Part shown: positions 14,886 through 16,127 of the stretch, in pieces
Layout: each line of letters begins with the position of its first letter
Numbering within the stretch: position 1 is the stretch's first letter
Source of the DNA: Oscillospiraceae bacterium
GTDB taxonomy: Bacteria > Bacillota > Clostridia > Oscillospirales > Acutalibacteraceae
Assembly: GCA_015066385.1 (NCBI GenBank)
Contig: SVOJ01000027.1
Location: forward strand, 1-36,097
Length of the DNA stretch: 36,097 bases
Reading direction: 5' to 3'
Position numbers and translations under genes: made by a program
The notes under the pieces: generated by a model
Told to the model about the DNA's origin: nothing
The model's database searches: none
Seen by the model: only the letters and a program-made list of their open reading frames with translations

Positions 14886-15185
14886 CTATTTTTCTGCTTC
14901 TTCTTTCATTTTCGCAAACTCTTCCGAATTAAACAAATTCAATGCCTTTTCTTTCAAATAAACAAAGCGCGCAGGCTCACCACGCTCGACATAGAGCCGC
15001 CCGAATGAGATATAATCACGAATTTCCAATCCGTCCAGAATGTTCTGCACCAAATCAATAGGTCTGCGTTCAAACACATCAAAATCATGATCCGGAAGGT
15101 CAATTTGCGTTTCATAATATTTCAGATATTTCTCACCGAGAAAGACAAGCATTTCTTTTTCCTTTTTGTTCAGATATTCCTGCAT
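14886..15185 (-). CDS. Small hypothetical protein
   Basis: A 99-residue, charged, probably helical cytosolic protein that I do not recognise. It has no signal peptide, cysteine or metal motif; the central part contains ERRPIDLVQNILDGLEIRDY and a C-terminal Lys/Glu-rich helix. The ATG at 15185 has AGGAG at a good distance. It lies immediately downstream of the terminator of the structured element at 15201-15410 and may be transcribed by readthrough from that promoter, because no separate promoter is visible. Confidence 0.65.
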   Translation of the reverse strand: MQEYLNKKEKEMLVFLGEKYLKYYETQIDLPDHDFDVFERRPIDLVQNILDGLEIRDYISFGRLYVERGEPARFVYLKEKALNLFNSEEFAKMKEEAEK

Positions 15186-15200
15186 AAAAAACTCCTGAAA

Positions 15201-15410
15201 TTAAAAAAGTGCGGCAACCAAGTGCCGCACCGAAAAACGCAAACCCTTGATTGTCGCCAAACAAATCAAACAGACAAAGCATTGCATGCCAAAATCTATC
15301 AGCCGGGTTTGCATTTTTGCAAAACTCAATACTGATATTTTTGACAAGCAGAAATAAAGATATTTTTGTAAAAAAATACCTGCGTTCTCTGTTTATTTGA
15401 TTTGTTTGGC
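15201..15410 (-). ncRNA. Candidate structured non-coding RNA (6S-like outline, class unassigned)
   Basis: The predicted transcript starts 7 bases after a perfect TATAAT, exactly at the first base of a perfect 15-bp closing stem (15396-15410 with 15256-15270). Inside, on the 5' side, is a 7-bp hairpin (15361-15378) enclosed by GCAG/CTGC. A second helix of 14 pairs with a small internal loop follows (15332-15346 with 15287-15302), then an apical 6-bp hairpin with an AAAA loop (15308-15323). It ends in an 8-bp GC-rich stem (15209-15216 with 15223-15230) and TTTTTT. A long-range 8-bp complement (15239-15246 with 15305-15312) competes with or ties this fold. The long rod with a large internal bulge recalls 6S RNA, but the side hairpin is on the unusual strand. 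No reading frame of note is present. A leader of the downstream gene is the alternative. Confidence 0.55.
15203..15230 (-). terminator. Intrinsic terminator of the structured RNA
   Basis: GTGCGGCA/TGCCGCAC (15209-15216 with 15223-15230, 6-base loop) is followed on the minus strand by six Ts. It lies about 20 bases upstream of the start codon at 15185. I found no competing anti-terminator pairing. Confidence 0.85.
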
Positions 15411-15416
15411 AGTTTT

Positions 15417-15445
15417 ATTATACCACAGGCGGTTTTGATTTACAA
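15417..15445 (-). promoter_or_regulatory. Promoter of the structured RNA
   Basis: On the minus strand TTGTAA (15440-15445), a 17-base spacer ending in TGG and a perfect TATAAT (15417-15422) form an extended sigma-A promoter. It points into the 15410-15201 element. Confidence 0.7.
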
Positions 15446-15543
15446 GGGTAAATTACGGTTTGTCGGGCTACTTGCAAAGTGAATTTGACCCTCAAATACT
15501 TGTCGCCCCTTTCAGGCAATGTCGTCAACTTAAGGAATTTTTT
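15446..15543. other. Intergenic stretch with hairpin and recurrent 12-mer, possible element remnant
   Basis: This non-coding stretch holds a copy of AAATTACGGTTT (15450-15461) and a hairpin AAGT..ATTTGA/TCAAAT..ACTT (15477-15501). No reading frame is seen. It could be a decayed repeat element. Confidence 0.3.
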
Positions 15544-15573
15544 TGTAACCTTTTATGCCTTTGGGTTGTTATA
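15544..15573 (+). promoter_or_regulatory. ECF-type promoter upstream of the sigma factor gene
   Basis: TGTAACC (15544-15550), a 17-base spacer and GTTATA (15568-15573) match the AAC-type -35 and the GTTA/CGTC-type -10 of extracytoplasmic-function sigma factors. This suggests autoregulation. A short palindrome GAAAGG-A-CCTTTC follows at about 15580. Confidence 0.6.
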
Positions 15574-15641
15574 TAAGTGAAAGGACCTTTCAATAGGGTG
15601 ACGGGAGCAAGCCGAACCCGTTTTTTACAGGCGGTGAAACA

Positions 15642-16127
15642 ATGACAGAAGAAGTATTTACAGATGCCGTGCAACGAAACAGCCAACGGTTGTATCTCAT
15701 TGCACTGTCATTTGTGAAAAATACATACGATGCCGAAGATATTCTGCAAAATGTATTTTTAAAGCTGTGGAAACATCCGAAGCCTTTTTCCGATGAAACG
15801 CATCTGGATAAATGGCTGACAGCCATATGTGTGAACGAAAGCAAAAATTATATAAAGCATCCGTTCCGACAGCATATCAATATTGAAGACTGTGTTTTTG
15901 TTTCATCTGCCGAGATGGACAGTAGCGAAAAAGCAGATCTGTACAGGGCTGTGATGCAACTGTCAAAAAAAGAACGTGCGGTCATTCATTTGTTTTACTA
16001 CGAAGACCTGTCTGTCAAAGACATTGCAAAAATGCTGAAAATGAAAGAGTCGGCAGTAAAAACAAGGTTGAACCGCGCAAGAAACAAACTGAAAGAACGA
16101 TTGGGGGATGCATGGATCGATGAGTAA
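15642..16127 (+). CDS. ECF-family RNA polymerase sigma factor
   Basis: A 161-residue sigma-70 family protein consisting only of regions 2 and 4, as in ECF sigma factors that respond to envelope stress. Region 2 (about 10-65) contains NTYDAEDILQNVFLKLW. Region 4 (about 105-155) has a helix-turn-helix, LSVKDIAKMLKMKESAVKTR. The ATG at 15642 follows GGCGG. The stop overlaps the start of the downstream membrane protein by 8 bases, the usual sigma/anti-sigma coupling, and an ECF-like promoter sits upstream. The regulon cannot be inferred. Confidence 0.93.
   Translation: MTEEVFTDAVQRNSQRLYLIALSFVKNTYDAEDILQNVFLKLWKHPKPFSDETHLDKWLTAICVNESKNYIKHPFRQHINIEDCVFVSSAEMDSSEKADLYRAVMQLSKKERAVIHLFYYEDLSVKDIAKMLKMKESAVKTRLNRARNKLKERLGDAWIDE

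Follow-up and report, generated by a model that had tools for sequence, protein, structure and literature searches.

A probable riboswitch-like transcription attenuator with a chain of four competing helices in leaders of accessory genes of Clostridia

The analysed window, a 36,097-nt stretch of DNA from an Oscillospiraceae bacterium, carries on its minus strand a structured leader at 15410-15203. According to the promoter consensus, the leader is preceded by a -35-like TTGTAA (15440-15445) and, after a 17-nt spacer, by a -10 hexamer TATAAT (15417-15422). A sequence-only reading made earlier had already noticed this hexamer, but placed it seven nucleotides ahead of the closing stem, while the actual distance is 6 nt. 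The closing stem P1 is indeed the perfect 15-bp helix which that reading had described, composed of the 5′ strand GCCAAACAAATCAAA (15410-15396) and the 3′ strand TTTGATTTGTTTGGC (15270-15256), and the position of the promoter makes 15410, the start of P1, the likely 5′ end of the RNA. Folding of the minus strand also returned the side hairpin, inner helix and apical hairpin claimed for the enclosed domain. The side hairpin, belonging to the long subtype, lies at 15359-15380, the inner helix P2 is formed by 15331-15349 and 15284-15302, and the apical hairpin consists of strand 1 (15319-15332) and strand 2 (AAAAATGCAAACCC, 15305-15318). P1 is followed by a linker, AAGGGTTTGCGTTTTTC, which constitutes strand 3 (15232-15248), and then by an intrinsic terminator, GC-rich and ending in six T residues as stated before (15230-15203). 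Its 5′ half is strand 4 (15218-15230), and strand 5 with the U-tract occupies 15203-15216. Strands 1 to 4 were assigned from duplex energies and family covariation, with the fold as an additional basis for strand 1, and strand 5 from sequence, fold and duplex energy. The earlier reading had missed the double complementarity of the linker, as well as the ribosome-binding site AGGAG (15192-15196) and the 99-aa gene (MQEYLNKKEK..., 14886-15185) located directly behind the leader, the ATG of which, at 15185, is separated from the U-tract by 17 nt.

The predicted minimum free energy of the window RNA is -75.8 kcal/mol, whereas 200 dinucleotide shuffles averaged -46.45 (sd 4.15), which corresponds to a z of -7.07; no shuffle folded as stably. 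The linker is complementary to the 3′ strand of the apical hairpin over 14 contiguous base pairs (2:3, -19.9 kcal/mol) and also to the 5′ half of the terminator (3:4, -12.4 kcal/mol); the terminator itself (4:5) has -15.9 kcal/mol and the innermost part of 1:2 is weak (-3.7), all of these being duplex energies that ignore tertiary structure and folding kinetics. The nascent fold of the window RNA contains the antiterminator.

The five strands form a chain of helices, namely hairpin 1:2, pseudoknot 2:3, antiterminator 3:4 and terminator 4:5, in which each helix excludes its neighbour. Transcription would start at P1, as the promoter suggests. In the ON state strand 2 would be kept in the apical hairpin, leaving strand 3 free to form the antiterminator with strand 4, which would permit readthrough into the gene. 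In the OFF state strand 3 would pair back with strand 2 as a pseudoknot, which would allow the terminator to form, and transcription would end with release of a product of about 200 nt. The domain comprising P1, P2 and the pseudoknot may act as the sensor, and a cellular signal, most likely a small molecule, would shift the balance, more probably towards OFF by stabilising the pseudoknot.

The RNA is not confined to the window. A DNA search revealed two relatives in the window's own genome. Within the genus, 17 of 26 genomes had matches, the window's own being one of them; one of the 17 (genome G020, locus L017) is a 27-nt match at which no such RNA is visible. A strict pattern of linker and terminator occurred in 31 of 200 genomes of the bacterial family and in 29 of its 135 genera, and the reversed control of this pattern gave zero in every row listed. 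The same pattern was present in at least 118 stretches from named genomes. The 80 titles listed among them all belong to Clostridia (Oscillospiraceae, Ruminococcaceae, Ruminococcus, a Christensenella and others), an animal host or gut site is named in 47 of these 80 by our own count, and the cultured Anaeromassilibacillus senegalensis An867 is among the pattern matches listed. A covariance model built from 20 same-genus copies found the RNA in 47 of 147 genomes (37 of 88 genera) of the order, in 66 of 293 genomes (44 of 181 genera) of the class and, in a phylum-wide draw of 299 genomes, in none but the window's own, these draws being overlapping sets of genomes at least 90% complete, each including the window's genome. 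In seven chosen genomes the model gave 11, 12, 24, 21, 13, 14 and 11 matches (106 in total). One of the 24 matches in genome G555 lies on the opposite strand of another, which leaves 23 places, and the window's genome carries 11 copies. Matches were also obtained in eight stretches of a viral collection (L199-L206, of which L201, L203 and L205 are alike, as are L204 and L206); small accessory genes stand behind these copies, several of them lipoprotein- or membrane-like. The RNA thus belongs to a large and apparently unnamed family in Clostridia. Tandem copies were seen in L107 (6628-7437), L108, L118, L130, L176, L181 and L185, and by pattern in L112. L107 holds four copies in a row, about 210 nt apart, in which two types alternate and alternate copies are 81% and 73% identical.

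A total of 185 instances was collected, 175 of which had a closing stem above the threshold, and removal of copies more than 88% alike left 160. The RNAs are 130 nt or longer (median 169); 112 of the 160 are shorter than 190 nt and 48, like the window RNA, are of the longer type. Of 158 relatives, 155 have a -10 hexamer with at least four of six matching positions no more than 20 nt from the RNA start, where shuffles predict about 95, and 57 have a perfect TATAAT, where 3.4 are expected. The hexamer is located most often 4-8 nt ahead of P1. The family consensus also contains short conserved stretches outside the helices. Upstream open reading frames showed no excess (8 of 160 RNAs, 9.9 in shuffles), and a translated leader peptide of the type used in trp attenuation was ruled out on this basis.

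Covariation among relatives, by which the sequence-only reading had proposed to judge the RNA, was observed in its stems. In 159 nonredundant RNAs the matched strands paired more stably than swapped ones, with z values of -20.3 (1:2), -18.7 (2:3), -15.6 (3:4) and -23.4 (4:5), whereas the control pairs 1:3, 2:4, 1:4 and 2:5 stayed between -1.0 and -0.2; the relatedness of sequences can inflate such shuffle controls. With swaps restricted to the same terminator type and length class, the respective values were -19.1, -16.7, -13.9 and -19.0, with 0 of 2000 permutations as low, and two control pairs gave 0.6 and -0.5. Each swap test omitted one of the 160 RNAs in which the strand-2 motif was missing (L023 in the within-class test). 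The window's own 2:3 pair was better than all 39 class partners; its 1:2 pair was beaten by one of 39, 3:4 and 4:5 by three each, and the control pair 2:4 by four.

Alignment A4 comprises 112 RNAs, taken from 99 of 198 loci and the window, one row being a weak match on the opposite strand of another (L050). The OFF structure is paired in 94.0% of cells (80.9% when shuffled), and 33 of its 40 pairs show two-sided changes; the ON structure is paired in 94.4% (80.8% when shuffled), and 32 of its 39 pairs show such changes; slid versions of the structures pair 36.7-58.8% of cells. For P1, which was picked by maximal pairing, 99.3% of cells are paired and all 11 pairs show two-sided changes. The alignment was fitted to a model containing P1, inner P2, 1:2 and 4:5, and therefore the counts for these helices lean towards structure. 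Moreover, the instance search included the linker U-tract and the terminator, so their conservation arises partly by construction. The pairings 2:3 and 3:4 belonged to neither the search pattern nor the model. Inside 2:3, two of the 14 positions are frequently unpaired (54 and 36 cells), so that this helix has an internal loop in many members; the outermost pair of 3:4 is formed in 76.2% of cells. Neighbouring helices share at least 3 nt of strand 2 in 156 of 159 RNAs, and of strands 3 and 4 in all 159. Nascent folds ending in strand 4 hold the antiterminator in 159 of 160 RNAs, while full-length folds, computed without pseudoknots, are divided into 89 with the antiterminator and 71 with the terminator, all three being plain counts without a shuffled control. 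The covariation of all four helices, which is absent from the control strand pairs, ruled out that the element is no more than a terminator or a repeat.

In 142 of 156 RNAs a gene start preceded by a ribosome-binding site lies no more than 160 nt downstream, at a median distance of 21 nt, and the remaining 14 have no close downstream gene by the same rule. In 139 loci with both sides present the rule fired 126 times downstream and 48 times at the mirrored divergent position, the latter number indicating how often it fires by chance. The gene is mostly too close behind the RNA for another promoter to fit, and therefore its expression should depend on readthrough. The 99-aa protein of the window matched nothing in Pfam or NCBIfam (E up to 0.001) or in PADLOC (E up to 1e-5), and a 104-aa relative of it is encoded behind a further copy (C4) in the window's genome.

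Of the 142 downstream proteins 138 were scanned, some of them cut by the end of the locus; a 45-aa ORF in L107 and the proteins of L119, L141 and L176 were left out. The largest Pfam groups were BspA-type leucine-rich repeats (LRR_5, 16 proteins) and HTH_3 (8), followed by zinc ribbons and SHOCT domains (4 each) and AMP-binding enzymes and dockerins (3 each). Among the PADLOC matches were generic HTH models and a type II methyltransferase, together with a few others. A secretion-type N-terminus was assigned to 78 of 136 downstream proteins of at least 60 aa and to 125 of 520 control ORFs (at least 100 codons, from loci of at least 6 kb), and a lipoprotein-type N-terminus to 28 of 136 and 22 of 520, respectively, by a crude hydrophobicity rule. 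In the window's genome, by our own reading, seven of the 11 copies precede secreted-looking proteins of 429 to at least 976 aa, three of which run past the end of the stretch fetched, two precede the small MQEYLN-type gene (the window and C4) and one an XRE-type regulator; the remaining copy opens a tandem pair. No common pathway unites the downstream genes, and therefore the targets suggest no ligand.

The view that the RNA looks undescribed agrees with the Rfam searches. At gathering thresholds the whole window had no match in Rfam 15, and with E up to 10 the segment 14900-15600 gave ten weak matches, the lowest E being 0.18, all far below gathering scores. Scanning of 40 related loci returned five tRNAs and one ZTP riboswitch, none overlapping the RNA, and a typical member (L003) had eight weak matches, with 0.97 as the lowest E. 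The 6S covariance model was without a match at gathering in the window and absent from the matches listed at E up to 10 for 14900-15600 and for the typical member, so that the 6S likeness proposed earlier was not borne out. The T-box model matched neither the window nor the 40 related loci, and no c-di-GMP riboswitch was matched in the window, the related loci or the typical member. Consequently, 6S, T-box, c-di-GMP and other Rfam families were ruled out as its identity. ToxN of type III toxin-antitoxin systems was absent from the best 25 families listed for each library (of 365 NCBIfam and 74 Pfam families matched) among the 138 downstream genes. An earlier study is said to have reported 224 candidate RNAs. 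The literature covered, including main-text passages of PMC8040213, PMC11109978, PMC8632094 and PMC2965389, contained no description of this RNA; an unnamed candidate in the tables of PMC8040213 may correspond to it.

A covarying structured domain, a position in the 5′ leader and a mutually exclusive terminator and antiterminator, which characterise attenuators of the riboswitch type, were all found by sequence and covariation. The RNA is therefore very probably a cis-acting transcription attenuator, a riboswitch-like 5′ leader operating through the competing four-strand chain, and it can probably stop or allow the transcription of accessory genes, often those for surface or secreted proteins. 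That the switch responds to a small molecule is held less firmly, at about even chances. Fluoride, ZTP and preQ1 riboswitches are transcriptional and possess pseudoknotted aptamers. They resemble the present RNA in the leader position, the structured domain and a pseudoknot to the 3′ strand that chooses between terminator and antiterminator, but this RNA has no Rfam match, a larger closed domain, no common metabolic targets and up to 23 places per genome. In T-box leaders an antiterminator likewise competes with a terminator; the present RNA differs from them in the lack of an Rfam match and of an amino-acid or aminoacyl-tRNA synthetase theme among the best 25 families per library of its downstream genes. 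With many copies per genome, one signal could control scattered accessory, often surface or secreted, proteins. It is about as likely as not that the family is a new riboswitch class, abundant in gut Clostridia, through which one small signal acting on up to two dozen leaders per genome switches the accessory surface and secreted proteome. If so, the RNA would serve as a global switch that governs the cell surface and not metabolism. With hundreds of detectable copies in Clostridia, many of them in gut bacteria of animals, and no match in Rfam 15, the leader would reveal an unknown intracellular signal together with an entire regulon of surface and secreted proteins. Since the four-strand mechanism gives clear mutational predictions, the signal and the logic are directly testable.

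The same anatomy would also serve a leader switched by a protein or another RNA, and genes without a common metabolism would suit such control. This reading is possible, but less likely than that of a small-molecule switch. Known antiterminator proteins bind short hairpins, whereas the size of this RNA, its conserved stretches outside the helices and its pseudoknot go beyond such hairpins, and regulator-like genes stand behind only some copies (HTH_3 in 8 of 138). The sequence-only reading had suggested an autonomous RNA, and its picture of a discrete structured RNA started by its own promoter was retained. In its favour, the RNA has a promoter and a terminator of its own, termination would yield a discrete transcript about 200 nt long, and little or no gene separates some of the tandem copies; the rod-like shape, length of about 200 nt and closing stem recall 6S RNA. 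Autonomy itself, i.e. a trans-acting small RNA, 6S-like or other, next to an incidental gene, is nevertheless very unlikely. A gene start follows nearly all relatives, and the linker provides a covarying antiterminator and pseudoknot, which count against autonomy because an autonomous RNA would not need them. With respect to 6S RNA in particular, the absence of an Rfam match, the many copies, the mostly leader position and the switching helices set the present RNA apart.

The presence of many copies before unrelated accessory genes could alternatively mean that the unit of promoter, RNA and terminator is itself a spreading mobile element, or travels with one, and became trapped there, and in L130 two tandem copies share the promoter stretch almost letter for letter. 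Naville and Gautheret described mobile attenuators, that is related, highly conserved terminators in front of unrelated genes, and attributed them to IS elements, as stated in the passages of PMC2965389 that were covered. Here, unlike in those terminators, a large covarying switch domain has its own promoter, and identity between tandem copies of one contig is no higher than 56-81%. Some RNA-gene pairs recur across genomes (the MQEYLN-type gene in L001, L002, L006 and L021). The switching helices are kept by compensating changes despite this divergence, and therefore selection acts on the switch, which leaves a mobile attenuator as an unlikely explanation. The least probable reading, to be given hardly any weight, is a known riboswitch class in disguise, such as c-di-GMP. 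The c-di-GMP riboswitches of Clostridia occur in many copies per genome before diverse genes, including those of surface proteins, which is also the case here, and GGDEF proteins are present in 12 of 20 RNA-rich genomes. However, no Rfam riboswitch falls on the RNA at gathering in the window or the 40 related loci. At E up to 0.001 no GGDEF protein was found in the other 8 of the 20, including the window's genome, whose assembly is 97.38% complete and which has 11 copies of the RNA, and c-di-GMP is disfavoured as the signal for this reason.

Several minor observations accompany the attenuator. In the window a divergent ORF on the plus strand (15642-16127) reads, in our own judgement, like an ECF-type sigma factor, and an ECF-like ORF is also located upstream of the RNA in the relative L015; this proximity is probably a coincidence. 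In genome G046 the 3′ half of the terminator is replaced in four of nine copies by a similar sequence of about 45 nt running into the contig end (at contig starts in L191, L193 and L194, at a contig end in L196), as if an insertion element targeted the terminator loop, and a different sequence interrupts a fifth copy (L192). One subtype of the genus keeps a stretch resembling GTTTTGCGCGGAGGGAGG just behind the terminator (L009, L011-L013, L015, L018, L024, L025, L027 and L033), and in several of these loci the gene starts further downstream.
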